Shown piece by piece: positions 42,272 through 60,154 of a stretch of DNA of 64,000 bases (the stretch's first letter is position 1; every line of letters begins with the position of its first letter). A program made the position numbers and the translations under genes. The stretch covers positions 1-64,000 of IMG/VR virus record IMGVR_UViG_3300042691_025267; one strand, 5' to 3'. This DNA comes from a virus. Below the pieces are notes generated by a model. The model did no database searches, was not told the DNA's origin, and worked only from the letters and a program-made list of their open reading frames with translations.

Positions 42272-42491
42272 TCTCTTCTGGAGTTTCTTCTATACGGACG
42301 TAGACCATATTTTCCATGTCTAACCGCCATCCGTTCTTGGGGTCAATTTGTAATATTTGCATCATTTGTATATTTGCTTCTTGAATTTCGGTCATCAATT
42401 GTGTCTGATAACTCTTTAATAGTGCATTATTTGACTTGATTAGATTTTGTAACGCAAGTGGAACATCTACCGTAACTTGTTTAGTGCTCAT
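42252..42491 (-). CDS. small hypothetical protein (79 aa)
   Basis: Mostly helical, with a middle amphipathic stretch (NNALLKSYQTQLMTEIQEANIQ) and a Trp-containing end (DPKNGWRLDMENMVYVRIEE). I do not know it; similar short helical proteins occur beside phage helicases. It overlaps the helicase start by 20 bp and the protease end by 11 bp. GAGG lies 7 nt before the ATG. Confidence 0.6.
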   Translation of the reverse strand: MSTKQVTVDVPLALQNLIKSNNALLKSYQTQLMTEIQEANIQMMQILQIDPKNGWRLDMENMVYVRIEETPEENAPVTG

Positions 42492-43140
42492 GTATACCTC
42501 CTAAAAACATCTGTTTAATTTCTATTGCATTTTTTTCTGGGAACTGTTGTACCAATTTAGCCAGTTGTCCCGATACTCGTGCTGCTGCCAACGAAGTACC
42601 AGACGCTATCTGTGTTTCTCCGTCTAGTGTTGTAACTTCTACGTCAATCCCCAAGGCAATCACATCAACTTCTGGTCCAAAATTACTTCCCCGACCTTCT
42701 TCCCATGACATGACTTGATTATACATATCACATGCACCAACGCCAATTACTTCATTCATATTCACGGGAGAAAATTCAGAGGCTGGTCGCATTTCGTTTC
42801 CTGCTGCTGCAACTACAATAAACTTTGTAGGATCCAACTCTCGTATCTTATCGTCAATAATATGATGGCGTGGAACTGCCCATGCGCAGGTGACGATATT
42901 GACAGGTTCCGTTGCATCGTGTTGTATTGCGGTAAATGCTTCCATCATCTGTCCAAATGTACCCACTGAACCCAATCCAATTTTTACATTCTTTAGTAGA
43001 ACGTTGGGGTTAGTTCGTCTAATGACACTTGCTACTCCTGTGCCATGTCCATCTAGATCGTCAAACGTTCCATCATAGGTGTATACGTTTATCCCGTTTG
43101 GTATTCCACTGTCTACTACGTAAATTGTTACACTTCCCAT
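42481..43140 (-). CDS. minimal subtilisin-like serine protease (S8)
   Basis: 219-aa subtilase with the full triad: Asp10 (VVDSGIP), His32 (DGHGTGVAS) and Ser183 (SGTSLAAA), and oxyanion Asn115 (AAAGNE). It begins almost at the catalytic Asp, so it has no signal peptide and no pro-domain: it should act in the cytoplasm and fold without a chaperone domain, or use the pro-domain of the larger paralog at 44.1-45.6 kb. Sequence blocks are shared with that paralog (AAAGN, SGTSLAAA). Possible jobs: prohead or tail processing, peptide maturation, or attack on host proteins. Overlaps neighbours by 11-13 bp. Confidence 0.9.
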   Translation of the reverse strand: MGSVTIYVVDSGIPNGINVYTYDGTFDDLDGHGTGVASVIRRTNPNVLLKNVKIGLGSVGTFGQMMEAFTAIQHDATEPVNIVTCAWAVPRHHIIDDKIRELDPTKFIVVAAAGNEMRPASEFSPVNMNEVIGVGACDMYNQVMSWEEGRGSNFGPEVDVIALGIDVEVTTLDGETQIASGTSLAAARVSGQLAKLVQQFPEKNAIEIKQMFLGGIHEH

Positions 43141-43364
43141 TTACCTTTTGGACATGCACTTGGTCCTTTTGGACTATATACTTTTTTTGACAATGGACAT
43201 CCACATGCACCACAGATATGCGTCCGTATTAACATTTTAAACTCTTTGAACTCACACGCATCGCAAACTTCTGCTCTACGTTCAGCAGTTTCTTTTTGTT
43301 CAATAGTTGGATTACTGGCACGATGCCATGCAGTGATAATTTCTCGTATATCAGGAATATTCAT
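43128..43364 (-). CDS. small zinc-finger protein (78 aa)
   Basis: Contains four to six Cys in CDACEFKE, HICGACGCPLSKKV and PSACPKGKW, a pattern typical of one to two zinc knuckles in small phage proteins. The N-terminus is helical (EIITAWHRASNP). Between the two proteases, so it could be a substrate or partner of the short subtilase. Start overlaps the sulfotransferase stop by 4 bp. Confidence 0.7.
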   Translation of the reverse strand: MNIPDIREIITAWHRASNPTIEQKETAERRAEVCDACEFKEFKMLIRTHICGACGCPLSKKVYSPKGPSACPKGKWEV

Positions 43365-44080
43365 ATTGGAAATTCATAATTAAAATATACAAAATCGTCG
43401 TGAAACAAATATTTCACCAAGTTCTTAAATTTTTCTGAGTTAATATCTATATTAATTTTTATTTTTTCCTTGGGTGTGATATTTTCTTGTTTAATTACAG
43501 ATGTGTCATATCCCAACGTGACTTCTATCCAATCATTAAATTCGTTTATATTTTCATATCTAAATATTTTAACCTTTGGTTTGTACGCCCATTCTACTTG
43601 AGTTGTAAAAAATGAGGACACAAACCCCGGTCCGTCTGCATCAAAAATTAACTGTAAATTATTTATATATTTTGGTACACAATTTTTATAAAACGAGTCA
43701 TAACAAAAATCGTAAAAAAACTTTTCCGATTGAAATATGTCTATAAAGTTAAATCCCTTCGTCCTTGGATCAGTTTCTTCAATTTTAATTCTTTGTTTTG
43801 AATCGACATCAAACTGATATGTGGTTTTATATACGTTTCCTTGTAAATACGAATCACGTTTAAACTTCATGAAATATAGTGCTGAAATAAATCTTTTATA
43901 CGGATTTCTTATTACGGTAAACGCCGGAATATCTATGTGTTCTTTAGTATATGGATCGTGTGTATGTAAAAAGTTTTCACCGATCTCTGGGAAAAATAAC
44001 TTCGTATATGCAATGGTTCCTGTTTTTGGTATTTTTATATAAAAAAACTTATTATTATTAATTCTTGAAGTAACTATCAT
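43361..44080 (-). CDS. sulfotransferase-like protein A
   Basis: 239-aa PAPS-dependent sulfotransferase fold. The 5'-phosphosulfate loop is IKIPKTGTIAYTKLF (residues about 16-30) and the 3'-phosphate site VIRNPYKRFISALYFMKF (Arg and Ser kept). This layout is that of the Golgi/NodH-like family 2 enzymes that sulfate carbohydrates. An upstream extension to 44149 is open but overlaps the protease; the ATG at 44080 follows that stop by one base. Acceptor unknown; the sulfate donor would come from the APS kinase fusion at 46.2-47.0 kb. Confidence 0.83.
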   Translation of the reverse strand: MIVTSRINNNKFFYIKIPKTGTIAYTKLFFPEIGENFLHTHDPYTKEHIDIPAFTVIRNPYKRFISALYFMKFKRDSYLQGNVYKTTYQFDVDSKQRIKIEETDPRTKGFNFIDIFQSEKFFYDFCYDSFYKNCVPKYINNLQLIFDADGPGFVSSFFTTQVEWAYKPKVKIFRYENINEFNDWIEVTLGYDTSVIKQENITPKEKIKINIDINSEKFKNLVKYLFHDDFVYFNYEFPI

Positions 44081-44081
44081 A

Positions 44082-45608
44082 TTAAGCTTGTGTAAAACAT
44101 TCACCATTAGAACATCCGCAACTGTACCCTTTGGGGGGGATAGCACCACAGGTCTGAAAGCAAAACCCTTCGCATGCAGCAGGTATTACCACTATTGTAC
44201 CATTTTCTTCTTTATATTGATACACTTCTTCCGTTGTAGATTCTTCTGGATCATTTATATATGTACCTATCAACAACGGGTATACTTCTAACTGTGTATC
44301 ATTTTGATCTACTACTTTGATAAATATTCTCGTATTTTTAACATAATTAACATCCGTTGGACTAAACCTAATAGTATTAGTAGTTGTGTCAATCGTAACC
44401 CACTCAGGATAATATCTACGTATGTTACCGAAAACAACATCATCTATGTCTATTCCATAGGCATATTGATCATTTAATTCTAATATTAATTCATACTCTG
44501 TACCAATCTGTACATTTATTTTTTCTTTCGGGATATTTTTTATAAACTTATCAAATGATGAGATGTATAGTATACTATTTGGTGTTGTGCCATAGATACT
44601 TTCATTTCTAAACAAAATATCAGTAATTCCACTATTAATTACTATGAATTGTATGTGGTATGCAGTAAGATTATTCGTTGAATTTAAATCTTTTATATAT
44701 TGTGCAACTACCCCCGACGTTAATGCAGCAGCAAGTGAAGTACCAGAAGATTCTTTTATAGTACCGTCTATGTTTAGAACATTAACTCCAATTCCTGGCG
44801 CAAAAATATCTACATCGGGCCCCCAGTTTGAACCAGCTCCACCCCCCCAACTAATAACTCTATCATATGGATCGGATGCACCTACACCTATCACCGTATC
44901 TAACCCCACGGGCGATAGATTATTTGCGTCTGACATGGTGTTACCTGCTGCGGCCACTACTACAAAATTACTATCTTGCAATTCTTTAATTTTTGTATCA
45001 AGAATTTTACTTCGTGGAATAGTCCATGAGCAATTTACTACAGCAACTTCGGTTATATCGGTTCGGTCTTGCAAAATTGCGTCAAATGCAAGTAACAAAT
45101 CACTTATGTTAATCACTGCTGCCATTTCAATTCTTACGTTTTTTAATTCTACGTTAGTTGCTACACCAAGTGTGCTACCAACTATTAGACTTGCCATAGC
45201 AGTACCGTGACCCAACTCGTCAGAAAAATCACCATTGAAACTATAACAGTTAACAATATTTGCGTCAACTAATTCTGGTAACGTTGCGTTTATTCCACTA
45301 TCAATCAAATAAACTTTTACTCCATCCCCATGATTTAATGGAAAATACTTTTCTTTCATTGGAAGTGCATTAGAAATAATTCTTAATTGGTGCCACTCCG
45401 AATTAGATGGATGTACTTCCGTACTCAAGTCTTCTTCTATATCTAATACACCAGATATGTTCGTAAATACGTCTTCTGATTCGCACGATACATTGACTAC
45501 CTGCATGGAAGTAAATATACGATTTACTACTATACCTTGATTGGTCATACTGCTAAGTAAATTTTCTATATTAATATCTTTTTCAAAAACTACATTATAG
45601 TTTTTCAT
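44082..45608 (-). CDS. subtilisin-like serine protease with pro-domain and Cys-rich tail
   Basis: 508-aa S8 protease from ATG 45608 (GAGGA 6 nt upstream). Residues 1-65 look like an inhibitor_I9-type pro-domain (MKNYNVVFEKDINIENLLSS). Triad: Asp103 (YLIDSGI), His134 (LGHGTAMAS), Ser291 (SSGTSLAAA), with oxyanion Asn223 (AAAGNT). After 310 comes a beta-domain of cadherin or putative-Ig type (NVQIGTEYELILELNDQY). The end is Cys-rich (EGFCFQTCGAIPP, CGCSNGECFTQA), possibly disulphide-linked or metal-binding. No export signal is seen. Neighbours are sulfotransferase A and a QueC-like enzyme. Confidence 0.9.
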   Translation of the reverse strand: MKNYNVVFEKDINIENLLSSMTNQGIVVNRIFTSMQVVNVSCESEDVFTNISGVLDIEEDLSTEVHPSNSEWHQLRIISNALPMKEKYFPLNHGDGVKVYLIDSGINATLPELVDANIVNCYSFNGDFSDELGHGTAMASLIVGSTLGVATNVELKNVRIEMAAVINISDLLLAFDAILQDRTDITEVAVVNCSWTIPRSKILDTKIKELQDSNFVVVAAAGNTMSDANNLSPVGLDTVIGVGASDPYDRVISWGGGAGSNWGPDVDIFAPGIGVNVLNIDGTIKESSGTSLAAALTSGVVAQYIKDLNSTNNLTAYHIQFIVINSGITDILFRNESIYGTTPNSILYISSFDKFIKNIPKEKINVQIGTEYELILELNDQYAYGIDIDDVVFGNIRRYYPEWVTIDTTTNTIRFSPTDVNYVKNTRIFIKVVDQNDTQLEVYPLLIGTYINDPEESTTEEVYQYKEENGTIVVIPAACEGFCFQTCGAIPPKGYSCGCSNGECFTQA

Positions 45609-45637
45609 AATAATCCTCAATCAAAGTACTTGAATTT

Positions 45638-46225
45638 TCATATAAGTACGTCATTTATATTTAATAAATTTGCAGCCCACTGACGTTCCATGCAGAAGTA
45701 ACACCCACCACACTTCTCCACACCATCTTTATTTTTTATACCACATGACCTAGTTAATTTCAACAAATCCAACACATTCTCTGTAACATACAATTGCATT
45801 ATTTCTTTTTTATCCATATCAATAAACGGTCTGATATGTTTATCATTGTAAGGAGGGCCCCTAAACGGTGGTGTATCGTTTTTTATGTATATAGTGGGGG
45901 TAAATTCATCCGTTAGTACTTTATTACATCCACTATATACATACCCGCCTTCCGTCAATAATATGTTTTCCACCAACTCCCGTATATTGTAGTTTTTATA
46001 TAATTTTTTATTACTAAAGTTAATTCCTTTCATAGTAAACCATTCCTGTACTCTCTTTACATTATTCACCGCATCTGCGGTTGGCATCGTATACGAGAGA
46101 ATCGGGATGGTCCTATTTTCTTCATAGAGTTGCTTTTGTAATAAAAATAATAAAATAGAACTATCCATTCCGCCAGAAAATAATACGTTAATTTTTTCGC
46201 AGTCGGATGGTATTTTTATTGTCAT
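45638..46225 (-). CDS. QueC-like PP-loop ATPase A
   Basis: 195-aa adenylating enzyme of the PP-loop (N-type ATP pyrophosphatase) group. PP-loop: VLFSGGMDSSILLFLL (SGGxDS). The C-terminus has LTRSCGIKN and EKCGGCYFCMERQWA, the four-Cys zinc site and ER tail seen in QueC (preQ0 synthase). QueC turns a carboxylate into a nitrile by activation with ATP and ammonia. No FolE, QueD, QueE or Tgt genes are in this window, so a full deazaguanine pathway is not shown; activation of another carboxylate is possible. A paralog lies at 47.2-47.8 kb. Confidence 0.82.
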   Translation of the reverse strand: MTIKIPSDCEKINVLFSGGMDSSILLFLLQKQLYEENRTIPILSYTMPTADAVNNVKRVQEWFTMKGINFSNKKLYKNYNIRELVENILLTEGGYVYSGCNKVLTDEFTPTIYIKNDTPPFRGPPYNDKHIRPFIDMDKKEIMQLYVTENVLDLLKLTRSCGIKNKDGVEKCGGCYFCMERQWAANLLNINDVLI

Positions 46226-46238
46226 ATATAAGTATCAA

Positions 46239-47012
46239 TTATATTCCCATTTGCTTACGAATGTCGGTTGCGCTGATCGCTTCTGTGGACGCGTCCAGAT
46301 TGATTTTCTCCACCTTATAGCCCACATCTCTACCGTAATACACGCCGGTAATGTTTGGTAGGAATATCACTTCAAATTTTCCTTGATATTTGTCATTTAA
46401 TTTTTTATAAATGAAATCAGATACTTCTTCATAATCAAACGGATTCTTTTCATCAATGTTGTGGGTATTGCGGACCCCAATAAGTACCTGTCCTTCTTTT
46501 TCCAGGATGGTTTCAAACAATTTCAAATGACCATCGTGGAATGGCTGGAATCGTCCAATCATCAATCCTGTGGGTGCTTGCCAATCAAATTCTGGAACCG
46601 GCTCCATCTTTTTAGTAAGGCGTGCGATAATCTCGTCAGTTTGTTCACCGACATCACCCCATGCAGTAATTTCCACATCTACTACTTCTGGTCGTTGGAA
46701 TACCTTATTGGTGTCCTCAAACCGACCTTCGTTGATTGTATTCATAAACACGATATAGTCGGGAGCAAACGCATCTCTGGTTTCTTCTAATGGACACACG
46801 AAATCGGCAACTACGTGGTCTGAACTGGCAATATCGGCAAGATGATACATTCTATCCGCCTGTCGGAGCCGTCCTTCTTCACTGAAGTCCCAATCATTAA
46901 ACATCTTACGAACTTCGTCTGCATTAAAATATGCGGCTTTCAACTTCTCTGCCAACACTTTGGAAAGGGTCGTTTTTCCAGACCCCGGTAATCCCATAAC
47001 TAAAATTTTCAT
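46239..47012 (-). CDS. adenylylsulfate (APS) kinase-like / nucleotidyltransferase fusion
   Basis: 257-aa two-domain protein. Residues 1-140: CysC-like P-loop kinase with MGLPGSGKTTLSKVLA, FNADEVRKMFNDWDFSEEGR (the APS-kinase DxxR region) and VADFVCPLEETRDAF. Residues 145-257: HxGH-type nucleotidyltransferase with GLMIGRFQPFHDGHLKLF and the end ISATDIRKQMGI (IS-T-x-R). Kinase alone would make PAPS from APS. The second domain could be ATP-sulfurylase-like (then one protein would make PAPS from sulfate) or a cytidylyl/NMN adenylyltransferase; the GRDVGY stretch slightly recalls GRDHAG of ATP sulfurylase. Three sulfotransferase-like neighbours give the PAPS a use. Confidence 0.82.
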   Translation of the reverse strand: MKILVMGLPGSGKTTLSKVLAEKLKAAYFNADEVRKMFNDWDFSEEGRLRQADRMYHLADIASSDHVVADFVCPLEETRDAFAPDYIVFMNTINEGRFEDTNKVFQRPEVVDVEITAWGDVGEQTDEIIARLTKKMEPVPEFDWQAPTGLMIGRFQPFHDGHLKLFETILEKEGQVLIGVRNTHNIDEKNPFDYEEVSDFIYKKLNDKYQGKFEVIFLPNITGVYYGRDVGYKVEKINLDASTEAISATDIRKQMGI

Positions 47013-47019
47013 ATAACCC

Positions 47020-47229
47020 TCATTCTTTAATTCCGTACGATACCCATTTGTACCATACTCGTTCGTGTAGAAAATATAACACCATTTTGGTCAGTACTTC
47101 CGCACCACCAATTGACAACCCAACTTTCCAATTACCCGATATGAGTCCTGCGAGTATTATGGTGTCTAGTGTACCAACAGCTCTCCAACTAATCGTCTTT
47201 GCTATATGTCGTTTTACATGTACTGTCAT
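47020..47229 (-). CDS. DUF2061 membrane protein
   Basis: 69-aa protein with the DUF2061 signature: HIAKTISWRAVGTLDTIILAGL, then GLSIGGAEVLTKMVLYFLHERVW. Two hydrophobic helices (about 18-33 and 38-55) make it an inner-membrane protein. DUF2061 genes are often beside sulfate-activation genes, which fits the APS-kinase fusion 7 bp downstream. Function of the family is not established. It overlaps the QueC-like gene by 41 bp. Confidence 0.85.
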   Translation of the reverse strand: MTVHVKRHIAKTISWRAVGTLDTIILAGLISGNWKVGLSIGGAEVLTKMVLYFLHERVWYKWVSYGIKE

Positions 47230-47776
47230 AATATGAATAGTTAATTGCCCAAGTTCGTTCTATACAATTTAAACAACTTCCGCAATGTCCATATTTTTGT
47301 AAATAACAACTGTGCGTAAGTTCCAGTAGTTCCCAAATATTTTCGTTCCTATATAATTGGACTACTTCGTGCTTATACATATCTTTGAATGGTATCAAGA
47401 CTTGTGGATATTCAAAAAATTTTCTCTCTGGAAACTGAGGCATAAATTTATTACTTCCGATAACAAACTGATCCACCTCTCCAGTTCTTAGATACAATTT
47501 AATCCACCTAGTAAACGTTCTATTACTTGTTGAATCTTTATCGTTAATTTCTTCTGGTGGTATTATACTTGTGTTTAGTTTTGTGTTTATCCAACTTAAA
47601 ATATTACGAATTCTATCCATACAAATCGTTGATTGAATCATTGTATAACACCGTATGTTTACATTCAATTTAGCTAATAGGTATAATAGCAACGAACTCT
47701 CTAGGCCACCTGACAAATATAGTCCAATATTATTTGTTGTTGGGCTTATACTAATTAAATTGGACACAGATGTCAT
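47189..47776 (-). CDS. QueC-like PP-loop ATPase B
   Basis: 195-aa paralog of the enzyme at 45.6-46.2 kb. PP-loop GLYLSGGLESSLLLYLL has Glu in place of the usual Asp (SGGxES), which could change or weaken ATP chemistry. The C-terminal zinc site is LTHSCYLQKYGHCGSCLNCIERTWA, closer to QueC (SCY...CGxCxxCxxR) than its paralog. A tail KTTYSKDD follows. Located with the sulfotransferase genes; overlap of 4 bp upstream. The substrate is unknown. Confidence 0.8.
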   Translation of the reverse strand: MTSVSNLISISPTTNNIGLYLSGGLESSLLLYLLAKLNVNIRCYTMIQSTICMDRIRNILSWINTKLNTSIIPPEEINDKDSTSNRTFTRWIKLYLRTGEVDQFVIGSNKFMPQFPERKFFEYPQVLIPFKDMYKHEVVQLYRNENIWELLELTHSCYLQKYGHCGSCLNCIERTWAINYSYYDSTCKTTYSKDD

Positions 47777-48411
47777 AAGTATGTAATACTTGGTTCCAAT
47801 AATTCATAGTCGTCTTTATATAGATTCATACACATCTCTTGTATTTTTTGCATGTCTCTAAATTTAGCAGGAGTAATATTAAAGTTATCAATTGCAGAAG
47901 GTCTAGCTTTTACAGTGTCGCCAAATGTTAAATAAATCCATTTTGTATACTGGTCCATTGATACAATTTTATACTCTTTTATGTCTTGGACGGATTCGTT
48001 ATAAGCAACCTCTATATTAACGGGTGGGATGTTATAAAAATAATCCATCTGGGATCTAGTGTGCATATCCAGTCTATAGTTTTTTAAAATCAATTCCTTT
48101 GCATTTAAAAAATCAGATAGTAAATCATGTCCACGACTTTTAGGAATAAATAATGGTATGTGTTCAACTTTAACAGTTTTATATAAAAATGGTTCGTATA
48201 TAAATTGATTGTAAAACGACAATAATCTTATGCATGGATCTCTATATAGGAAAGTTTTGTGTTCTGCTTCTGTAATTACATTTTTAAATATGGGAACGTG
48301 AGTCACATCTGTCAAATTGTACTTAAATACATTATTTACTAGATGTGATGATCCATTTCTTGAAGGAGTTACGATGAGATGCCTTTTTTTTAAATCATAA
48401 AACACTCGCAC
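47773..48411 (-). CDS. sulfotransferase-like protein B
   Basis: 212-aa protein, paralog of the next one (shared RHLIV, NGSSHL, TFLYRDPC and DDYELLEPxITYL blocks). PAPS-site loop TPSRNGSSHL near residue 15-24 and 3'-phosphate motif YRDPCIRLLSFYNQF. The start is a GTG at 48411, placed to match the paralog's ATG. It likely transfers sulfate to a sugar or lipid hydroxyl, or has moved to another phospho-group ligand; catalytic assignment is by motif only. Confidence 0.72.
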   Translation of the reverse strand: MRVFYDLKKRHLIVTPSRNGSSHLVNNVFKYNLTDVTHVPIFKNVITEAEHKTFLYRDPCIRLLSFYNQFIYEPFLYKTVKVEHIPLFIPKSRGHDLLSDFLNAKELILKNYRLDMHTRSQMDYFYNIPPVNIEVAYNESVQDIKEYKIVSMDQYTKWIYLTFGDTVKARPSAIDNFNITPAKFRDMQKIQEMCMNLYKDDYELLEPSITYL

Positions 48412-48434
48412 AAAAAATTCTCAACAAATTATAG

Positions 48435-49064
48435 TCAGAGATATGTAATGTTTGGTTCTAGTAATTCGTAATCGTCTTTATACAACGTCATACATAAATC
48501 TTGTATTCTTTGCATATTACGAAAATTAGAAGGATTGATGATAATACTATCTAACGCAGACGTTGATTGCGTAGTTTTTTTATCTACAAACGTCAGTTTT
48601 AGCCATTTGGCATATTGATTGATTGAAACTATTTCATAGTCACTTATATTTTGGTCATATCGTTCATCTTTGAAATAGTCACTCTGCGGGGTTGTATGAA
48701 AATCTTCCTTATAATTTTTTATCAATTTATCGGTAGCGAGAATCATATCAGATAGTAAATCGTTTCCACGAGTTACCGGTTTAAATAATTTATTGGCTAA
48801 ATTCGTATCTTGATCTTCCTTGGCAAATGTTTTTACTGCCTGTGTATCAAATACAAATCTTTTATAATATGACATCAGTCTAACACAGGGATCTCTGTAT
48901 AAAAAGGTTTTTTTCTCGACTTCCGAAATTATACCATTAAATATAGGACTGTGAGTTACCTCGGTTAATTTGTATTCTATTGCGTGATGATGTAGATGCG
49001 AAGATCCATTGCGAAATGGCACCACTATGAGATGTCGTTGACTTATATTGTAAAATATTTTCAT
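48435..49064 (-). CDS. sulfotransferase-like protein C
   Basis: 209-aa paralog of protein B. Loop VPFRNGSSHLHHH (residues about 15-27) and YRDPCVRLMSYYKRF (Arg and Ser of the 3'-phosphate site). The same C-terminal NITYL ends both. Two tandem paralogs plus protein A imply three different acceptors or positions. It begins one base before the carbamoyltransferase stop codon. Confidence 0.72.
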   Translation of the reverse strand: MKIFYNISQRHLIVVPFRNGSSHLHHHAIEYKLTEVTHSPIFNGIISEVEKKTFLYRDPCVRLMSYYKRFVFDTQAVKTFAKEDQDTNLANKLFKPVTRGNDLLSDMILATDKLIKNYKEDFHTTPQSDYFKDERYDQNISDYEIVSINQYAKWLKLTFVDKKTTQSTSALDSIIINPSNFRNMQRIQDLCMTLYKDDYELLEPNITYL

Positions 49065-50561
49065 TTATAGTACCGTTACTTTATAAAAATGTTCAAACTC
49101 AAGTGCATCGTTTCGTGTATTTACAATAGGTTGCCCCTTGATATTCAAACTGGTGTTTAGTAACATAGGGCACCCCGTTTCCTCATACCACGACATTAAT
49201 AGTTGATAATATCCTGGATTATTTTCTTTAGTTACCGTTTGAACTCGTGAGGTACCATCGGCGTGAATAATTGCAGGAAACTCCTCTGGACGTTTACACT
49301 TTACTACATACTGCATATACGGACTTTCATCTGTCACCATATCAAAATAGTCAGCCGCATGTTCTTGGAGAATGGAAGGAGCAAACGGACGAAACTTCTG
49401 TCGGCGTTTGATTGCATTCACCGTATCCTTAATTTCTGGACCCCGTGGGTCTGCTAATAAACTTCTATTACCCAACGCACGGGGTCCAAATTCTGCTCGC
49501 CCATTTGCCACTCCTACTAATTTATTCGTTTTCAATTCAGAAATCAACCCCCCAACGGGATATTCTCCTTCAATATTATACCCTAGAAATGGACTAGTGA
49601 ATTGAATATGTTCGTTAGTATATGATAAGATTGCTCCTAGACTGTTTCCCGCATCGCCTGGATTAGGTATGATCCATACATTCTTAAAGTATTCCAACGT
49701 TATTGGATTAGCAACGCAATTCAGTGCGCATCCACCACCTAATACCAGATTATCAGATTTTATCAACTCTTTGGTCTTTTTTAAAAGATCACGAAAGTAT
49801 AGTTCGTATACATACTGCGTTGCAGCTGCTATATCATACAAATCCTGCGGATCGTTGGTTCGGTTCAATTCAGGAAACCACCAAGAACATCCACGATGTA
49901 AGTTGTGTTTTAATCGCAATAAATTTGATTTATAATAGAATTCATTCATATATTCTTTTTTATCAAAAAAATCTTCTATTATCATCGCAGAGTATTTGTG
50001 CGGATCACCATATGCGGCCATGCCCATGAGAATATATTCTTCTTCATTTGGTTTTAATCCCACCCGTTGCGTCATGGCAGAATACCACAATCCTAGACTA
50101 TGAGGATAACCAATACCTAATTTGTTGGTAAGTTTTGTACCTTTTCCTTCCCAAATTGTTGTCGTATCAAATTCACCAATTGCATCAATAATAAGAACTG
50201 CTGCTTCTTGAAACTGCGATGTATAGTATCCCGCCGATGCGTGACTTTTGTGATGGCCGGTAATTTTGACGGGAGCAGTGATTCCATAGGTGGACAGATA
50301 TCGTCGTATATTATTTTCTTTAATACGCAATCCTTGACCAGCATATAGTTGTCGTAGGGTTTTTACATATGGATTCTCGTACCAAACAACGGACGATGGC
50401 TTTCCATATCGTAATGCATCCTTAATTAACTCCGGATGTAGATCTTTGTCGTTTTTATTTTTTGAATACCGTTCGCTTTGTGACGCAAATACCAACGAGT
50501 TATCTTTTATTACCGATAATGCAGCGTCATGACTGTTAGCAGAGATTCCCCATATTACCAT
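49065..50561 (-). CDS. carbamoyltransferase (NodU/CmcH/TobZ family)
   Basis: 498-aa O-carbamoyltransferase that moves a carbamoyl group from carbamoyl phosphate, through carbamoyl-AMP, to a hydroxyl group. N-terminal ASKHA-type domain: WGISANSHDAALSVI, then GHHKSHASAGYY (catalytic/metal His), LGGGCALNCVAN. C-terminal domain: VANGRAEFGPRALGNRSLLA and RPFAPSIL, with the end LLNTSLNIKGQPIV. All family landmarks are present, so it should be active. Known relatives decorate Nod factors (NodU), cephamycin (CmcH) and tobramycin (TobZ). Neighbours are sulfotransferases and SGNH proteins, which fits decoration of a shared acceptor. Confidence 0.93.
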   Translation of the reverse strand: MVIWGISANSHDAALSVIKDNSLVFASQSERYSKNKNDKDLHPELIKDALRYGKPSSVVWYENPYVKTLRQLYAGQGLRIKENNIRRYLSTYGITAPVKITGHHKSHASAGYYTSQFQEAAVLIIDAIGEFDTTTIWEGKGTKLTNKLGIGYPHSLGLWYSAMTQRVGLKPNEEEYILMGMAAYGDPHKYSAMIIEDFFDKKEYMNEFYYKSNLLRLKHNLHRGCSWWFPELNRTNDPQDLYDIAAATQYVYELYFRDLLKKTKELIKSDNLVLGGGCALNCVANPITLEYFKNVWIIPNPGDAGNSLGAILSYTNEHIQFTSPFLGYNIEGEYPVGGLISELKTNKLVGVANGRAEFGPRALGNRSLLADPRGPEIKDTVNAIKRRQKFRPFAPSILQEHAADYFDMVTDESPYMQYVVKCKRPEEFPAIIHADGTSRVQTVTKENNPGYYQLLMSWYEETGCPMLLNTSLNIKGQPIVNTRNDALEFEHFYKVTVL

Positions 50562-52194: not shown

Positions 52195-52196
52195 CA
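52125..52196 (-). repeat. 36-bp tandem duplication
   Basis: Two copies of 36 bp (52125-52160 and 52161-52196, differing at the ends) at the start of SGNH protein 2. It keeps the frame (12 codons). The downstream copy supplies a Shine-Dalgarno (GGAG) for the internal ATG. The near-identity suggests a young event. Confidence 0.85.
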
Positions 52197-53143: not shown

Positions 53144-53923
53144 TTATCTTAGTAAAAATCTTCCACAATTTCTGTTTATATTGTAGTTATGTCGCATTGC
53201 AGCCTGTTGATCATGTAGTGGTATATTATTTTCTATAAATTCCGCAGATAACTGATTGGTATAATATTCCGACAAATACAACCTACACCACAATTCATGA
53301 TGCTTCACGGTTGGATGGTAATCTACCCAATTATCACCTGCGTTTGATTTTTTAAACACGTATGGTTTAAATTGACGATTTTGCTGTAGCCAGGTTAGCA
53401 TGTTGGGTTCTTGTCCAAAATAAGAATCTATGTCGTCTACATATTCTTTATAAAATTCTTGTTCCTGTACGGGTGGGTTGAACTGTTGCAATTCATGTCC
53501 TACTGTTGGACTAATATCAAACGCTTTCATAAATTTATAATTACATCCGATACTGTCGAGTAATATTTTTGTTTGCTTAATTGCCATCCATGTATTATAA
53601 AATCCTTGCGTAAAGGACCAATTATTATCACGCCACTGTTGTTCATATGGCAATGAATGAGCATTGAATATATTGCCATTTCTGGTCCATGCGCTCGTAT
53701 AAAAATCTATTCTTGGAATACTAGTATACATTACGAACACTGTGTCGTTTGCTGTAAGTTTATTTACCTGATGACATTCTAATACTCTTGATGATATCAA
53801 ATAATTACCACTACCAGCAAGTCCCCAATTTTCGTAATAATCAAAGGATTGTCCGACAATATCTGCCCACGTTGGCCATACATATTCTGTAAAACTGCAA
53901 CCAAATGCAAACATTCGTTTCAT
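53144..53923 (-). CDS. SGNH-hydrolase-like protein 4
   Basis: 259 aa. Block I is MFAFGCSFTEYVWPTW with Ser, then NWGLAGSGNYLISS as the Gly/Asn block and WVDYHPTVKHHELW with D-x-H in the C-terminal catalytic place. The DxH pair is the most complete catalytic end among the tandem copies. No signal peptide. Overlaps the next upstream gene by 4 bp (ATGA type). Confidence 0.7.
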   Translation of the reverse strand: MKRMFAFGCSFTEYVWPTWADIVGQSFDYYENWGLAGSGNYLISSRVLECHQVNKLTANDTVFVMYTSIPRIDFYTSAWTRNGNIFNAHSLPYEQQWRDNNWSFTQGFYNTWMAIKQTKILLDSIGCNYKFMKAFDISPTVGHELQQFNPPVQEQEFYKEYVDDIDSYFGQEPNMLTWLQQNRQFKPYVFKKSNAGDNWVDYHPTVKHHELWCRLYLSEYYTNQLSAEFIENNIPLHDQQAAMRHNYNINRNCGRFLLR

Positions 53924-54657
53924 AATTTTAACCTATCAAAAATGTTATTTGCTAATTCTGCATATCCGATCTCATTAAAATGAGAGCAAAAAGATGTGTT
54001 TTCTGGGGTGAGTTGTGGAAATTTTATATTCAAATATGCATCTTCTTGTAAATACGATACGTTTCTATCTGCTCCTTCTTTAAATAGAAAATCAAAATAG
54101 AACTTATACCCTCTTAGTTGACAGAAGTATTTTATTATTTGTATATAAAAATCTCTTTCTAGGTGTAAATCTTCTTCTGGATTTTTCATCAATTCCAACA
54201 AACCAGTTATTAATTTACTATATTCATTTCTATTATTATTGATGTGTATATCCTTTACTAATCCGTTTATAAAAAAACTTATTCGTGAAGACGAGGGGAC
54301 TAGCCATATAACTGTCACATCATATCCTACAGAAAAATCAACTTCTCCATACCCACTTAAAAATCGTTTTACTTGTCCCGATGGTCCACTACCGCCACGT
54401 CCTAAATTGATAACTCTATCAAACCCCATCATTTCTTTTAGTACATTTGGCCAAGAATATTCTAAAAATCTAGACTTACTTAAAAATAACATTTCATGAA
54501 ATTTATCAATTCTATCTTCTGGCAAAGGAGTCGCCCAATTAGGATTGTGACTAATATCTTTATTTCCTAACAGAAACTCTGCAAGTTTTGTTGGATCATA
54601 ATTTCCCCATCCCTCAGTAAAACTATCACCAAGCGCAATAAGTAATTTAGGTTTCAT
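53920..54657 (-). CDS. SGNH-hydrolase-like protein 5
   Basis: 245 aa from ATG 54657, whose ATGA overlaps the previous stop; three more residues are possible from 54666. KLLIALGDSFTEGWGNYD is a textbook GDSL block I; NLGRGGSGPSGQVKRF is the Gly block; FCSHFNEIGYAELA the His block. Close by eye to protein 1 (LLITLG, GxGGxSxxxxxKR, NEIGYA). Probably an intracellular O-acyl esterase or transferase. Confidence 0.75.
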   Translation of the reverse strand: MKPKLLIALGDSFTEGWGNYDPTKLAEFLLGNKDISHNPNWATPLPEDRIDKFHEMLFLSKSRFLEYSWPNVLKEMMGFDRVINLGRGGSGPSGQVKRFLSGYGEVDFSVGYDVTVIWLVPSSSRISFFINGLVKDIHINNNRNEYSKLITGLLELMKNPEEDLHLERDFYIQIIKYFCQLRGYKFYFDFLFKEGADRNVSYLQEDAYLNIKFPQLTPENTSFCSHFNEIGYAELANNIFDRLKL

Positions 54658-55661
54658 ATATCGCATCTATTCTTAGATTTTAATGTTCTATAGTTATACT
54701 CTACTATTTCTTTTATATTTTTTTGCCATAATAACCAGTATTCGTCTGGCATAGTACTTAATCTTAATAGTTCTTTCATAATAGCGTTATGACGTTCTTC
54801 TGAATCAGTAATTGTATCGTACTCTTCATTTATAAATGGCGAAAACGTTTTGTATCCCAATTTTCTTAATTCAATCAATGCTGTTGGCCATCCTGCTATT
54901 ATAAACGGGTGTTTTAATGAAATCGGTTTAAAAACCTTTTCAGAAAAAAATTTATAAGCTCCAGTAGTTTCTACGTTTACATCAAACATAGTTTCTGTTA
55001 CTACGCTAAAATAACTTTCCGAAAAATATTGAATATCATCCTCAATGATATTTGTTGGGTTCGTTCTAGTTTCTGTTATGTTTAATCGTATGGGTAACAT
55101 ACCGAGTACATCGTTGAGGTTGTCGTACTGTTTATTACGAAATTTATTATCGTTTAATAAATTTTCTATACACGCCCCTTCGAAAGAAAAAAAAGATTTG
55201 TTAAATAAATTATATTTAATACTATCATATAGTAAATTAAATCTATATAGTTTTGCAACTCTATTAAAGCTCAGAAATAATTTTTTTTTATTTATTATTT
55301 CATAACTTACTTCTGGCATATGAAGTAACTGTTCAGCAGCGTTTACTTCAAATATTGGCGTATATTTTACTTCTATCTTATTTTTCCAACCAAATTTTTC
55401 AAACATCACATCATATTTTTCTTGTCCATCAATAGATCCAGTAAATGTTATAAACTTTATTGGGTGGTCTACAAAATAATCTGCAATTCTCTGCATTTTT
55501 CTGATGTTATCACTTAACCACTCTGAGGAGTTGCTTAATACTATCACAGATACGTTTTTAGAAAGTGCAGTTTTAATTTCAGTCACTATAGATTTAAATG
55601 CCCTTTTTATAAAGCCAAAATCTGCATTATGACCGGCGTATATATAATAGTAATTTTCCAT
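54654..55661 (-). CDS. glycosyltransferase-like phage protein 1
   Basis: 335 aa. The C-terminal third has a block shared with two other proteins in this window: YFSVVTETMFD, then SEKVFKPISLKHPFIIAGWP, LRKLGYKTFSPFINEEYDTI and a SEERHNA helix. This (SEK-x-x-KPI-x-x-x-x-PFI) recalls the nucleotide-sugar-binding end of fucosyltransferase-type GT10 and exostosin-like enzymes. The N-terminal part holds no motif I can name (IYAGHNADFG). A glycosyltransferase role is inferred; the family is otherwise uncharacterised to me. Confidence 0.62.
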   Translation of the reverse strand: MENYYYIYAGHNADFGFIKRAFKSIVTEIKTALSKNVSVIVLSNSSEWLSDNIRKMQRIADYFVDHPIKFITFTGSIDGQEKYDVMFEKFGWKNKIEVKYTPIFEVNAAEQLLHMPEVSYEIINKKKLFLSFNRVAKLYRFNLLYDSIKYNLFNKSFFSFEGACIENLLNDNKFRNKQYDNLNDVLGMLPIRLNITETRTNPTNIIEDDIQYFSESYFSVVTETMFDVNVETTGAYKFFSEKVFKPISLKHPFIIAGWPTALIELRKLGYKTFSPFINEEYDTITDSEERHNAIMKELLRLSTMPDEYWLLWQKNIKEIVEYNYRTLKSKNRCDI

Positions 55662-55662
55662 A

Positions 55663-56916
55663 TCACAAATATTTGAATTCGTGCTCTTGGAAGATCAGTC
55701 GTGTTTCTTCGTCCATAATATTTACTGGATTTTGATTTCTGGTATTACCGTAATGAATGATTTCTCCGGGATGTTGGAACGATGTTAATTTTCTCCACGG
55801 ATCTATAACCGTTACCCAACTAGGGAACCGAATATTTTCCACGTATTCTTCCCAATAACCGATTAAATACACATCCGTCCAATCAGTTCGTAAATCAGAA
55901 TCTCCTGTGTGTTCATCGTAGTAATTTACTTCTCCGCCCAATTGTTCTATATAATGTCCGACCAATAGACTAGAACTACCGTTTAAATAAGGTACACCGG
56001 GTTTGTATGATTTACCTATTATTGTAATCTTTTTACCGTTTTCAATACATCGTTCTGCTATATTTTTTGCTTGTATTTCTCGTGCAACCATTATAGAATC
56101 AAATAAATCATAACCTAAATTTAATTTCTTTGCCAAATATCTTAATGCAATGTTGTCACGTGGATGACACGCACCGCCGTCACCCATTCCCGCAGTCATA
56201 TACTTTGGTCCCATTATACGATCAGTGGATTTCTTTAATGCGTTAGTAACTACATCTACATTTATGTTACCGTTACGTTCAGCAACGTCTTGTATCATAT
56301 TTACCAATGCAATTTTGGTAGAGATAAATGTATTATAAAAAATTTTAATTGATTCTGCCTCATCCCATGTACCAACTTCATATCGTGGATCGTTCTGCAT
56401 CATCGTTTTATAAAAATCAATTAAAATTTTAGCATCACCAGTCAATGAACCATCCTGGGTTCCTATGATTACCATTTCAGGATTTACCATATCCCGTTCA
56501 ACCGTACCCATTGCTATTAGATATGGATTATATATAAACCTATAATTTGTGGTGTGTTGTATAAATTGACTGCGTACTGTTCCTGGAAGTACTGTACTTA
56601 TTAACACCACCAACTGATCTTGCGTACAGTGATTATTTAGTTCTCTGAGAACGTCTGTTACTGTGAAGTAGTCAAAGTCTCTTGGTTCTAAATGTGAAGT
56701 TGGCGTTTCTCCGCCATAAAATTCTTCATGTGGAGTTGGAACTGCCACGAATATTAATTCGGCATCCAATACTGCTTCTTGAATACTGTTAGCCAATGGA
56801 AACTTCGGTGTCGGTGGACGCATTGGATCATATCCAGTAACCGTATGTCCAGCGTTCACCATTTCATTTGCACACGGTGCACCGAGTTTACCGCACCCAA
56901 TCATAGATACTTTCAT
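55663..56916 (-). CDS. nucleotide-sugar dehydrogenase (UDP-glucose/GDP-mannose dehydrogenase family)
   Basis: 417-aa, full-length. Rossmann start MIGCGKLGAPCANEMVNAGH, FVAVPTPHEEF, STVLPGTVRSQ, then the catalytic region GMGDGGACHPRDNIAL with Cys kept but Lys replaced by Arg in the PKD motif, and the C-terminal domain IIGKSYKPGVPYLNGSSS. Family enzymes oxidise the sugar C6 to a uronic acid. Start at 56916 (AGGGG 5 nt upstream), not the TTG one codon earlier. It would feed the glycosyltransferase-like neighbours with a uronic acid nucleotide; the donor is unknown. Confidence 0.87.
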   Translation of the reverse strand: MKVSMIGCGKLGAPCANEMVNAGHTVTGYDPMRPPTPKFPLANSIQEAVLDAELIFVAVPTPHEEFYGGETPTSHLEPRDFDYFTVTDVLRELNNHCTQDQLVVLISTVLPGTVRSQFIQHTTNYRFIYNPYLIAMGTVERDMVNPEMVIIGTQDGSLTGDAKILIDFYKTMMQNDPRYEVGTWDEAESIKIFYNTFISTKIALVNMIQDVAERNGNINVDVVTNALKKSTDRIMGPKYMTAGMGDGGACHPRDNIALRYLAKKLNLGYDLFDSIMVAREIQAKNIAERCIENGKKITIIGKSYKPGVPYLNGSSSLLVGHYIEQLGGEVNYYDEHTGDSDLRTDWTDVYLIGYWEEYVENIRFPSWVTVIDPWRKLTSFQHPGEIIHYGNTRNQNPVNIMDEETRLIFQEHEFKYL

Positions 56917-56952
56917 CAAAACCCCTCAACTTAAAGTAATTTTTAATATATA

Positions 56953-57966
56953 TTATTCAATTTCAATTGCATCGTATTTTAATATATTGTTTATTAAAAT
57001 TGGTTTTATTATATCGGGATAGGTTGTTCCCAACTTTATAGCATGTTCTTTGTTTGCCAAAAGTTTATCTTTAACTTTATTATACAATAAAAACTGGTCT
57101 TTCCTTGACAATAAATTAAGTCTGTGTATTTCTAATACAGCCATTTCAAATCTACGAACGTCATCTTCTATAGAATCAAATGAATAATCAAATATTTCCT
57201 CATATAATTCAAATCCAAGTTCTTTCAACCATAAATTATAATTTATTTTGTTGATCACAATAAATGGTTTCTTTAAAAATAAAGGAATTGTAGTTTTTTC
57301 CGTTATGAAATAATGATCTATTGTTGATTCATTTACTAGTTGTATAAACGAATTATTGTATTCTGACGGTAGAGTTCTAAATGGGTTTGGTGCGGTGAGA
57401 AACTTCTCGTCCAAAACAAGTTGTTTTTCTTTCCAGTATAGAAATTCGTAGGCATAATCCGTATATTTTCTGGTAGGTATTATCCAAGAAATTGCTTGAT
57501 CATCAATCAAATTATGTTTTTGCAATAGATCCATCATTAAACATCTGTGTGGATGTGGTCTATTATTTAGAGATATTAATGTATATTTAATATCTGCTTC
57601 GGAGTTTAATTCATATGCAAATCTATCTAAATCACCAGGTTCATCAAACCCATTATTTTGCAATGATACATTAAAAAATGCAGTTTCCCACGGAACAACA
57701 TTCTTTATACAGTTAAATTTAGTAGAAGTAATATCGTGCAATAAAGCTTCCGTAGATTTCCAGCAATTAACAATGGTTATATTAATATGTTTTTCATTTG
57801 CCCAATCCAATAAAACATCAAAATTAAAAGAACCGTCTGCGCTGAAGAATGATACATAATTATGTTCTTGTTCATTTACCAGTATGACCTCGTTAATATC
57901 TTGTCTTTCCCGTAATGAGTTAATGTCTATTAGATCTGCTGCTCTAGTTCCTATATACAGTCTCAT
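56953..57966 (-). CDS. glycosyltransferase-like phage protein 2
   Basis: 337 aa. Shares with the flanking proteins the block STIDHYFITEKTTIPLFLKK, PFIVINKINYNLWLKELGF and FDYSFDSIEDDVRRFEMA. Basic His-rich stretch LNNRPHPHRCLMMDLL matches SLNYRYRPHRLDLFLAF in protein 3 and may bind the donor phosphate. The KP residues of the other two are KK-P here. No membrane segment. Function inferred from paralogy only. Confidence 0.6.
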   Translation of the reverse strand: MRLYIGTRAADLIDINSLRERQDINEVILVNEQEHNYVSFFSADGSFNFDVLLDWANEKHINITIVNCWKSTEALLHDITSTKFNCIKNVVPWETAFFNVSLQNNGFDEPGDLDRFAYELNSEADIKYTLISLNNRPHPHRCLMMDLLQKHNLIDDQAISWIIPTRKYTDYAYEFLYWKEKQLVLDEKFLTAPNPFRTLPSEYNNSFIQLVNESTIDHYFITEKTTIPLFLKKPFIVINKINYNLWLKELGFELYEEIFDYSFDSIEDDVRRFEMAVLEIHRLNLLSRKDQFLLYNKVKDKLLANKEHAIKLGTTYPDIIKPILINNILKYDAIEIE

Positions 57967-57969
57967 ATA

Positions 57970-59277
57970 TCATCTCAATGTTTCCCAAAAGTCCAGTTGT
58001 ATATTTTTATGTCTACTTTTAAGTACTTCAAAATTGTGATCCACTACTTCGTTCGTTTCTTGAATAAATTGTGATTTTTTTGCATGACTCCATGAATCAA
58101 TTTCTTTACATACATTTGAAATTGCAAAAACTCGTTCGCGATGGTTGTCAATAGTATCATAACTTTCATCAAACCAATTAGAAAATGTTCTATAGCCCTT
58201 TTTCTTTAATGATACCAAAGAATTTGGTGCACCAACTAAAATAAACGGGTGTCTATATTTAATAGGCTTGAACGTCTTTTCTGTTTCTGCAATTGCATGT
58301 TGATATGCGTGGGTTTCCGTTACAACACTTAATAAAGTACCTTTATAAAAATGCTCAGTAGAATGTCCTATTTCCATTGTCATTTCTGCATGTCTCGTAT
58401 GATCAGATGACAGGTGATCTATTTTTAATGGCAGAATATATTGTTGAATATACTGTAGTTCTTCTTCCGAAATATCCAGCTGTTGCGCAATGTTACGATC
58501 TACCGTCTCTATAAATGAATTTGGAGACTCAGGATTTTTTTCAGGAAATGTAAACAAAGAACTTCCCAATAAATTTTGTTTGTAGAATGCCAAAAACAAA
58601 TCAAGTCTATGTGGTCTGTATCTATAATTTAAACTCAAGAAAGTTTTATGTATGTGTCTGATGTGTCGGTCGTTTACATACTCTCGGTTTGTCAATTGTT
58701 TTGACATATTCCACTCAAACGAATCCCAACAAAATATTTTAAGTCTGTTAGATGTGGGTGTATTACGTTGATCACAAAAGTTTTGGTATAAATCATCTCC
58801 ATTTGGACATCCCGTCATATAAATTACTTTATGCGGTGGTATTTGATGATTTAAAAAGTATTGTTCCATTAGATGAAAAAAGTTTGGATATACGAAAGAT
58901 TCCATAGAAAAATCAAGTAACATGTATCCTTTCCCATTCCTAAGTCCATCCATCACTCTACTAGATACTTTAGAATTTTCAAATAATCCAGTGGGAACTC
59001 CAAACGTAAATAAAGATTCCGCAGTTGTTTTATAAATGTATTGAAAATCGTATATAAAAATATCTTCTCTAGTAACTTCACTGGCAGATTTTAATACAAA
59101 GTTTTCGGGAAATTTTGATAACACCTCTTTATAAAAGTATGCGGACGTTGCCCTACGATTATCAGATATCGTTACATTTTCCACGGATAATGCAAGATCA
59201 TAAATGTTTGGCATTCGTGCATTACATAATGGACCTTGTGGTCCTATCCATTCGTAAATTACATTTATTTTAGTCAT
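57970..59277 (-). CDS. glycosyltransferase-like phage protein 3
   Basis: 435 aa, longest of the trio. Blocks: FLSLNYRYRPHRLDLFLAFY (middle), LLSVVTETHAY, ETEKTFKPIKYRHPFILVGA, LKKKGYRTFSNWFDESYDTI, then an HRERVFAI helix. The strong match to protein 1 shows the two share a common ancestor. N-terminal 200 residues differ and may set the acceptor. Overlaps the SGNH gene by 8 bp. Confidence 0.62.
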   Translation of the reverse strand: MTKINVIYEWIGPQGPLCNARMPNIYDLALSVENVTISDNRRATSAYFYKEVLSKFPENFVLKSASEVTREDIFIYDFQYIYKTTAESLFTFGVPTGLFENSKVSSRVMDGLRNGKGYMLLDFSMESFVYPNFFHLMEQYFLNHQIPPHKVIYMTGCPNGDDLYQNFCDQRNTPTSNRLKIFCWDSFEWNMSKQLTNREYVNDRHIRHIHKTFLSLNYRYRPHRLDLFLAFYKQNLLGSSLFTFPEKNPESPNSFIETVDRNIAQQLDISEEELQYIQQYILPLKIDHLSSDHTRHAEMTMEIGHSTEHFYKGTLLSVVTETHAYQHAIAETEKTFKPIKYRHPFILVGAPNSLVSLKKKGYRTFSNWFDESYDTIDNHRERVFAISNVCKEIDSWSHAKKSQFIQETNEVVDHNFEVLKSRHKNIQLDFWETLR

Positions 59278-60154
59278 TATTTATTATAGTATAAATTTGA
59301 TTTGCTACTGATATTTGGTGTTTTTCGCCGAAATGAACCCCATCGTATGCTGGAAAGATGTAGTCACTTCCCGAAAAATACCAACCACTTAATCCTTTGG
59401 TAAAATCAACTACATGTGGAACTATTCCTGTATATTGATTAAAATCTTCTATATTACAATTCCACATACTATTGATCAGTAAGTTATAAACTTTTACGTT
59501 TAACGCTTTTAGTAATACATTAACCGCACAATAATCTTCTATGAAATCATTGCTCCACATAGTATTTGACAGTATTGCCTTATCATAAACATCATTGATT
59601 ACTCTATCGTGTAAATCTAATGCAGGATCAATTTTCCATTTTACATTTAAGTGCTGTGGAGCGCCACCCTCTCGTATGAAAGTTTTTCTTGTCGGTTCAG
59701 TCCAAAGAATTAACACTCGTTCTGGCAACGGCATTCCAGACAAGACCCACGAAAATAATGTATGTTTTACATATTTTGCGCTGGATCCTCCTTTCCCTAA
59801 ATTAAGTATTTTCGTATTCAATTTACCTTCTAGGTGATGTACCCACATTTCTGTATGACGTACACCAATTCCCTCGGTAAACGAACATCCAATTGCAATA
59901 TCAAATTTTCTATCTTGTACAGTAGAAAACTCATAAGTTCTATATCCCATAGAATTATAGGTATAGAAATCATCTTCCATTTCATAATAAGGCCAGTCAG
60001 AAGATGGAATGTTCAATACTTTTATTTTTTCTAAAAACTCTAGATACTGTCTTTCACTATAAGTACCGTCAAACTTAGAACTACCGACGTTTCCATAAAA
60101 ATGGGCAAAATTGAACAGTTGATTGTACTTATGTGTTGGAGAAAACTTAAGCAT
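59270..60154 (-). CDS. SGNH-hydrolase-like protein 6
   Basis: 294 aa from ATG 60154 (GGAG 8 nt upstream; longer starts run into the radical-SAM gene). Block I FDIAIGCSFTEGIGVRHTEM with Ser, NLGKGGSSAKYVKHTL as Gly block, FPAYDGVHFGEKHQISVA with D-x-x-H in the catalytic place, so the triad looks complete. It has an N-terminal extension of 100 residues compared with the tandem copies. It lies 4.6 kb from them, next to glycosyltransferase-like protein 3. Confidence 0.75.
   Translation of the reverse strand: MLKFSPTHKYNQLFNFAHFYGNVGSSKFDGTYSERQYLEFLEKIKVLNIPSSDWPYYEMEDDFYTYNSMGYRTYEFSTVQDRKFDIAIGCSFTEGIGVRHTEMWVHHLEGKLNTKILNLGKGGSSAKYVKHTLFSWVLSGMPLPERVLILWTEPTRKTFIREGGAPQHLNVKWKIDPALDLHDRVINDVYDKAILSNTMWSNDFIEDYCAVNVLLKALNVKVYNLLINSMWNCNIEDFNQYTGIVPHVVDFTKGLSGWYFSGSDYIFPAYDGVHFGEKHQISVANQIYTIINND

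Follow-up and report, generated by a model that had tools for sequence, protein, structure and literature searches.

Gene content and layout of the island

We analyzed bases 1 to 64,000 (the window) of the 80,386-base IMG/VR virus record IMGVR_UViG_3300042691_025267, a genome fragment of a T4-like freshwater phage. Our subject is a run of genes at positions 42481 to 60154 that encodes a kinase/nucleotidyltransferase fusion (KIN), three sulfotransferase-like proteins (ST1 to ST3), an O-carbamoyltransferase (CARB), and sets of glycosyltransferase-like and SGNH-like proteins (Table 1). An earlier note, made from the letters of the sequence, had described a one-strand gene set over about 18 kb, and this layout was borne out. 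Every gene that it named is open and in place on the minus strand, and the intergenic gaps along the run from 42.5 kb range from -98 to +33 nucleotides (nt). The G+C content across 42481 to 60154 is 0.337, versus 0.404 in the core; core blocks of the same length (17.7 kb) all lie between 0.399 and 0.407, with none below 0.399. The core includes a clamp-loader subunit detected by Pfam, along with sliding clamp, DNA polymerase, RecA-type, and helicase genes recognized by eye from their translations.

Table 1. Genes of the island and related genes of the window (positions are those of the window; SAM, S-adenosylmethionine)
Gene	Position	Strand	Description
KIN	46239..47012	-	APS-kinase-like domain (aa 1-140) and NMNAT-like HIGH nucleotidyltransferase (aa 147-257)
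ST1	43361..44149	-	Sulfotransfer_2-type; KxPxTGT and RNPxxRFxSAL motifs
ST2	47773..48411	-	Sulfotransferase-like; NGSSHL and FLYRDPxxRLxSxY motifs
ST3	48435..49064	-	ST2 paralog (phmmer 2e-65)
CARB	49065..50561	-	NodU/TobZ/NovN-family O-carbamoyltransferase; both domains; HHxxHA and FGPRALGNRS intact
UGD	55663..56919	-	UDP-glucose/GDP-mannose dehydrogenase; catalytic Cys in GACHPRD
Second UDP-sugar dehydrogenase-type protein	26937..27797	-	Without C-terminal domain
PglC-like	4834..5427	-	Priming sugar-phosphate transferase (Bac_transf); PF02397 1.5e-58
GT1	54654..55661	-	Glycosyltransferase-like; EKxFKP...PFI...G...LGY motif
GT2	56953..57966	-	Same family as GT1
GT3	57970..59277	-	Same family as GT1
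SG1	50555..51367	-	SGNH-like; Ser and His, Asp near His absent
SG2	51382..52197	-	SGNH-like; Asp near His absent
SG3	52187..53131	-	SGNH-like; most divergent
SG4	53144..53923	-	SGNH-like (DUF6071-like); Asp at -2 of His
SG5	53920..54666	-	SGNH-like; SG1 paralog
SG6	59270..60244	-	SGNH-like; canonical DxxH
DUF2061	47020..47229	-	Small membrane protein; PF09834 2.8e-21
QueC1	45638..46225	-	Small PP-loop ATPase; SGGxDS and Cys4 site; flanks KIN
QueC2	47189..47776	-	QueC-like; SGGLES; Cys4 intact
S8a	42481..43140	-	Subtilase; S8b paralog
S8b	44082..45620	-	Subtilase; syntenic in relatives
ZnR	43128..43364	-	Small Cys-rich protein; syntenic in relatives
RS1	60147..61124	-	Radical SAM
RS2	61103..62395	-	Radical SAM/SPASM
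RS3	62382..63635	-	Radical SAM/SPASM

KIN has an APS-kinase fold and a nucleotidyltransferase domain

The first half of KIN resembles adenosine 5'-phosphosulfate (APS) kinases, which form 3'-phosphoadenosine 5'-phosphosulfate (PAPS). It matches PF01583 at 26.5 bits (cut-off, 21.1), and a PDB profile search with KIN returned PAPSS1 and plant APS kinase. The AlphaFold model has a mean predicted local distance difference test score (pLDDT) of 91, and its top nine PDB matches by Foldseek are all APS kinases, followed by gluconate and shikimate kinases. KIN has both a P-loop, with Lys13, and the APS-kinase fold, and profiles place an NMNAT-like domain after them, as in the APS-kinase/nucleotidyltransferase fusion named by the earlier note. 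In an alignment of 11 full-length relatives, R35, F43, and R48 are invariant and position 98 is F or Y; we take these to be the counterparts of the APS-contacting residues of human PAPSS1 (DGDNxR, FSxxxR, and FTGID). One APS-site Asn is replaced by Gln51.

The nucleotidyltransferase half carries GRxQPxHxGH, as in nicotinamide mononucleotide (NMN) adenylyltransferases, in all relatives, and its ATP-binding half matches the archaeal NMNAT MJ0541 (2.2e-11). ATP sulfurylase was not among the PDB profile matches of this half. HIGH-type ATP sulfurylases have two motifs, QxRNPxHxxH (sulfate/ATP) and GRDHxG. The most conserved block of the KIN domain, GVYYGRDVGY, recalls the GRDHxG loop; it is invariant among full-length proteins, split marine forms carry GR(D/G)VGY, and in KIN the Arg and Asp of GRD are Arg228 and Asp229. 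We propose KIN as the enzyme that supplies PAPS.

KIN is linked to sulfotransferases of unrelated families

We scanned 2.9 million viral contigs for KIN relatives, for which a broad alignment was too divergent and a narrower one succeeded. The scan yielded 105, and the best 80 of these together with four annotated phages gave 84 loci. A sulfotransferase-like open reading frame (ORF) is present in 79 of the 84, its start lying a median of 830 nt from that of KIN. When the kinases were clustered, such an ORF was present in 22 of 24 clusters at the 90% identity level and in 10 of 11 at 80%. The linked loci span freshwater T4-like, marine, and Casjensviridae phages, and the partner families are unrelated (Sulfotransfer_2 in freshwater, Sulfotransfer_1/3 in marine, and Sulfotransfer_4 in Casjensviridae phages). 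The Sulfotransfer_1/3 gene of marine phages lies immediately upstream of KIN, and in a Planctomycetaceae metagenome-assembled genome (MAG), KIN directly follows a Sulfotransfer_1 gene.

Because KIN loci had supplied the seeds of the sulfotransferase profiles, we made two further checks. A reciprocal scan with the ST2/ST3 family alone found nine loci, all nine on contigs already known to carry KIN. We also drew 80 marine contigs via a neighboring tail gene, blind to both genes: 8 carried KIN and a sulfotransferase, 1 carried KIN only, 2 carried a sulfotransferase only, and 69 carried neither (Fisher p 1.4e-8, uncorrected for relatedness). The sole KIN-only case lies near a contig end. KIN and sulfotransferases are thus linked, which suggests roles for phage sulfotransferases and for phage APS-kinase genes.

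Kinase-nucleotidyltransferase fusions also occur in other pathways, as in NadR and HldE. KIN might likewise be a NadR-like kinase plus adenylyltransferase that makes NAD or another activated metabolite, its sulfotransferase partners being coincidental neighbors in variable regions, and the closest match of its nucleotidyltransferase half is indeed archaeal NMNAT. The linkage argues otherwise, as several unrelated sulfotransferase families accompany KIN in separate phage groups and again in the independent draw. In addition, the kinase half matches APS kinases first, and the acceptor half of the nucleotidyltransferase is unlike NMNAT. We regard a NadR-like role as improbable.

In the marine loci (L031 to L094), the KIN kinase and nucleotidyltransferase are mostly two overlapping ORFs. 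The sulfotransferase often ends at the kinase start, and 2-oxoglutarate (2OG)-Fe(II) oxygenases are found close by.

The island is modular around KIN and a sulfotransferase

Co-occurrence in other phages had been put forward in the earlier note as a check of its reading. The set does recur in freshwater T4-like relatives; elsewhere the genes move apart, with the exception of KIN and the sulfotransferases. Freshwater records L022, L024 to L027, L029, and L030 repeat the order CARB .. DUF2061-KIN-QueC1-subtilase, with ST1 next in most, QueC2 or another sulfotransferase-like ORF before DUF2061, and the same helicase gene adjoining. CARB is also on records L015, L016, and L023, and phages of 105 kb and 302 kb carry it with KIN elsewhere in each. 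Among annotated phages, the CARB family (phrog_1601) was found in 145 records, most of them from cyanophages (42 matched over most of their length), whereas KIN was matched in only 10, with hosts other than those of CARB phages. Marine and Casjensviridae phages carry KIN and a sulfotransferase without CARB, and Stenotrophomonas phage Suzuki has KIN and a Sulfotransfer_4 gene and lacks CARB. Since the parts separate outside the freshwater lineage, we describe the island as modular: KIN and the sulfotransferases form a nearly fixed core, while CARB, SGNH, and glycosyltransferase genes come and go.

Carbamoyltransferase and sulfotransferases

Judged by its sequence, CARB is a certain member of the NodU/TobZ family, in agreement with the NodU/CmcH-type call of the earlier note. 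It is full length, with matches to Carbam_trans_N (1.4e-44; 153.4 bits; cut-off, 24) and the Carbam_trans C domain (5.3e-57; 192.5 bits; cut-off, 27), and its PDB matches are NovN, GdmN, and TobZ. Alignment with NovN and GdmN matches both the HHxxHA metal site and the FGPRALGNRS loop, and the family features HxxxH, GGGxAxN, and FGPRALGxRS are all present.

A phage-type carbamoyltransferase is known to make 5-carbamoyloxymethylcytosine in DNA (PMC8670742), a precedent for CARB acting on phage DNA apart from the sulfation genes. The QueC-like genes beside KIN would suit such a role, as they recall deazaguanine DNA chemistry. DNA-acting carbamoyltransferases co-occur with thymidylate synthase homologs, and on unmodified contigs the carbamoyltransferase lies near glycosyltransferases (PMC8670742). 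We found no thymidylate synthase family or dCMP hydroxymethylase gene in the 80-kb record, itself an incomplete genome, which disfavors the DNA role; CARB also adjoins sulfotransferase, SGNH, and glycosyltransferase genes. Action on DNA is therefore highly unlikely.

The three sulfotransferase-like proteins of the earlier note differ in standing. ST1 is assigned to Sulfotransfer_2 with moderate confidence: ST1 itself scores 20.3 bits (cut-off, 22), its L027 ortholog scores above the cut-off (31.7), and both the 5' and 3' PAPS motifs are invariant. The case for ST2 and ST3 rests on motifs. The two PAPS motifs (NGSSHL and YRDPxxRLxSxY) are retained in both proteins, as is a C-terminal LYKDDYELL segment, and the hhalign alignment of ST2 and ST3 with the ST1 family is in register (E 1.5e-4 in one comparison; P 51%). 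Scans of phages and viral contigs with the single ST3 protein gave no matches, relatives being reached by family alignment only, and PDB profile searches with ST2 and ST3 gave only chance-level matches. By sequence alone, ST2 and ST3 are weak candidates for sulfotransferases.

Sugar-handling and SGNH-like genes

Both sugar-nucleotide dehydrogenase-type genes of the earlier note were recovered, and the sequence identity of UGD is certain. The three glycosyltransferase-like proteins of that note, GT1 to GT3, are mutually related, have no Pfam match, and are weak glycosyltransferase candidates; GT3 was unmatched in annotated phages at E 1e-3. The six SGNH-like proteins that it listed share G10, S12, and H226 (the block I Ser and block V His), which are invariant in all six. 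Two of the six have sub-threshold GDSL matches, and PDB profile searches gave only chance-level matches. The block-III Asn is apparently replaced by Arg, and an Asp near the His is found only in SG6 (DxxH) and SG4 (DxH), leaving four of six without the catalytic Asp. These losses weaken the acyl part of the proposal. The SGNH proteins may be acyl enzymes or relatives with lost activity, and they form the weakest link of the island.

Past the window, the run continues with radical SAM and glycosyltransferase-type genes to the end of the record at 80386. The latter include a PF11397 N-acetylglucosamine (GlcNAc) transferase match (E 8.7e-53), a weak family-2 match, and an Anp1 match slightly below its cut-off. 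Near the PF11397 genes, at about 70.3 to 71.6 kb of the record (L002 8293-9564, minus strand), lies a mucin-like protein in which Thr, Pro, and Ser recur in long repeats (TPSVTQTPSVT); it might accept O-glycans on the virion.

Proposed function of the island

From the presence of these genes, the APS-kinase fold, the intact CARB, and the KIN-sulfotransferase linkage, we infer enzyme activities, a pathway order, an acceptor, and a biological purpose. The island is probably a glycan-decoration island built around a sulfation module, in which a phage-borne PAPS supply feeds glycan sulfotransferases and carbamoylation occurs alongside. Through its N-terminal domain, KIN would phosphorylate APS with ATP to yield PAPS, and its NMNAT-like C-terminal domain may join ATP and sulfate to give APS. 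ST1 to ST3 would transfer sulfate to hydroxyls, and CARB would add carbamoyl to another hydroxyl. The UGD enzymes would make sugar acids, the PglC-like enzyme would prime a lipid-linked sugar, the glycosyltransferases would extend it, and some of the SGNH proteins may attach or strip acyl groups. As the acceptor, an oligosaccharide made at the host membrane (a host-surface glycan altered in infection) would be likeliest, with a virion glycan second. The earlier note had proposed sulfate, carbamoyl, and acyl groups on a glycan; the linkage, intact CARB, PglC-like enzyme, dehydrogenases, and glycosyltransferases support the first two, and the acyl part is weak. By sulfating and carbamoylating a glycan of the host or the virion, phages could influence receptor blocking, superinfection exclusion, and inter-phage competition.

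We more tentatively suggest, as a possibility that may well fail, that KIN is a minimal one-chain PAPS synthetase, combining an APS kinase with an NMNAT-derived ATP sulfurylase. It would act as a plug-in across unrelated phages, powering their own sulfotransferases, and many viral "cysC" genes may have been misread as sulfate assimilation.

The island could instead modify virion (tail fiber) proteins or their glycans, and not the host surface. The module abuts fiber-like genes (c15, c16, c20, and c21) in relatives, marine KIN loci adjoin tail genes and 2OG-Fe(II) oxygenases, and the Thr/Pro/Ser-repeat protein lies near GlcNAc transferases in this record. Proximity to tail genes may, however, merely mark a variable region, and the priming polyprenol transferase and UDP-sugar dehydrogenases favor membrane-linked glycan assembly. 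A virion target is a serious contender that we nevertheless consider unlikely.

Several observations weigh against a sulfation-centered glycan island. The record is fragmentary, and no flippase or polymerase gene was noticed, with no dedicated search made. KIN is short for a canonical APS kinase. The canonical lid motif is KGLYKKAR, and by alignment this stretch is absent from KIN and its relatives; our claim is therefore limited to KIN working like an APS kinase and does not extend to canonical membership. In the nucleotidyltransferase, only the ATP half aligns with NMNAT (the acceptor half scores -0.6 bits), and the sulfurylase QxRNP motif is absent from KIN and its relatives, which have GRxQP instead; we therefore assign this domain to neither NMNAT nor ATP sulfurylase. 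ST2 and ST3 have no Pfam match. The ST3 model has a pLDDT of 75, and its best PDB matches, heparan sulfate sulfotransferases, are nonsignificant (E 0.19), so that this fold match is suggestive only. Some KIN partners (the C_PRT family and the ORF beside KIN in the 105-kb phage) were called by a P-loop-like motif only, with no Pfam support. Five of the 84 KIN loci are exceptions to the linkage. L090 is cut on the upstream side, and L048 and L052 end within the module; L057 has no sulfotransferase in 5.4 kb upstream and 1 kb downstream of KIN, and the complete 168-kb phage DLP_6 has KIN with no Sulfotransfer_1, _3, or _4 match. A gammaproteobacterial MAG also carries KIN, with no sulfotransferase detected. 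Finally, a PAPS/sulfation scheme gives no account of the QueC-like, subtilase, and radical SAM genes.

Other genes of the run

The earlier list omitted two subtilases, two QueC-like genes, DUF2061, and tandem radical SAM genes of the same run, to which the small Cys-rich protein ZnR also belongs. DUF2061 adjoins KIN in nearly all freshwater relatives. In the 302-kb phage (L218 6062-7044), the kinase, DUF2061, and nucleotidyltransferase are three consecutive ORFs, the last starting at most a few bases from where DUF2061 ends, and this order ties DUF2061 to the module. As a marker of bacterial sulfate genes, DUF2061 showed no link at six loci with short flanks, so its role is proposed from phage synteny only.

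QueC-like proteins with the Cys4 site accompany KIN in freshwater relatives. Tandem radical SAM/SPASM genes recur beside KIN and CARB in relatives, and here they continue onward past the window. A defense system was considered and rejected, as PADLOC appears to have recognized only the superfamilies behind its QueC, subtilase, and viperin models.

Two subtilases, at least three radical SAM/SPASM genes, and two QueC-like ATPases in one run resemble peptide tailoring sets, which raises the idea that the product of the cluster is a soluble small molecule or a modified peptide tailored with sulfate and carbamoyl. Yet no precursor peptide was identified, sugar genes are prominent, and the marine and Casjensviridae modules have KIN and a sulfotransferase without these subtilase, radical SAM, and PP-loop genes. 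We give such a product very little credence.

Amid the T4-like replication genes, next to a dCMP deaminase-like gene (by eye) and the PglC-like transferase, lies an 895-amino-acid TonB-dependent outer membrane receptor (5879-8566, minus strand) with CarboxypepD_reg, Plug, and beta-barrel domains. It is unusual cargo, possibly for receptor replacement or nutrient uptake.

Comparison with known systems

The earlier note likened the island to the rhizobial Nod-factor set (NodPQ, NodH, and NodU), which likewise clusters activated sulfate, a sulfotransferase, and a NodU-family carbamoyltransferase with sugar genes. The likeness to NodU is true homology, and that to NodPQ is no more than functional. 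KIN has no GTPase domain, and the neighboring PP-loop proteins match QueC, not CysD; lacking both a CysD and a CysN part, KIN is not NodP/NodQ. The island is also phage-borne and has several sulfotransferases and SGNH proteins, and NodABC backbone genes were not noticed here, with no dedicated search made.

Animal PAPS synthetases (PAPSS1/2) share with KIN an APS-kinase domain first and a HIGH-motif nucleotidyltransferase second in one chain. KIN is only 257 amino acids long, compared with about 620, and its nucleotidyltransferase is NMNAT-like, without QxRNP and with GRDVGY for GRDHxG. Should this half produce APS, KIN would be a PAPS synthetase of unusually small size and would be useful as a tool enzyme.

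Sulfotransfer_3 genes occur in marine phages (OM43 phages and viromes), where their function was stated as unclear and no tie to a phage APS kinase was drawn (PMC10580990); the linkage with KIN offers them a testable role. Phage cysC genes in aquatic viruses have been filed, unvalidated, under assimilatory sulfate reduction (PMC12713726). The KIN family travels with sulfotransferases, which fits sulfation and may provide another interpretation for viral genes of the APS-kinase type. We found no description of a phage APS-kinase/sulfotransferase pair in the literature, preprints and most subscription journals being outside the search.

Cyanophage and pelagiphage carbamoyltransferases (phrog_1601) belong to the same family as CARB, and the HTVC008M copy is also near a UDP-glucose dehydrogenase. 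Phage C48C1 has a carbamoyltransferase and no KIN, and in Mosig none is annotated near CARB. Phage carbamoyltransferases and phage sulfotransferases are each already known, and we regard the island as a variant of phage glycan-modification islands.

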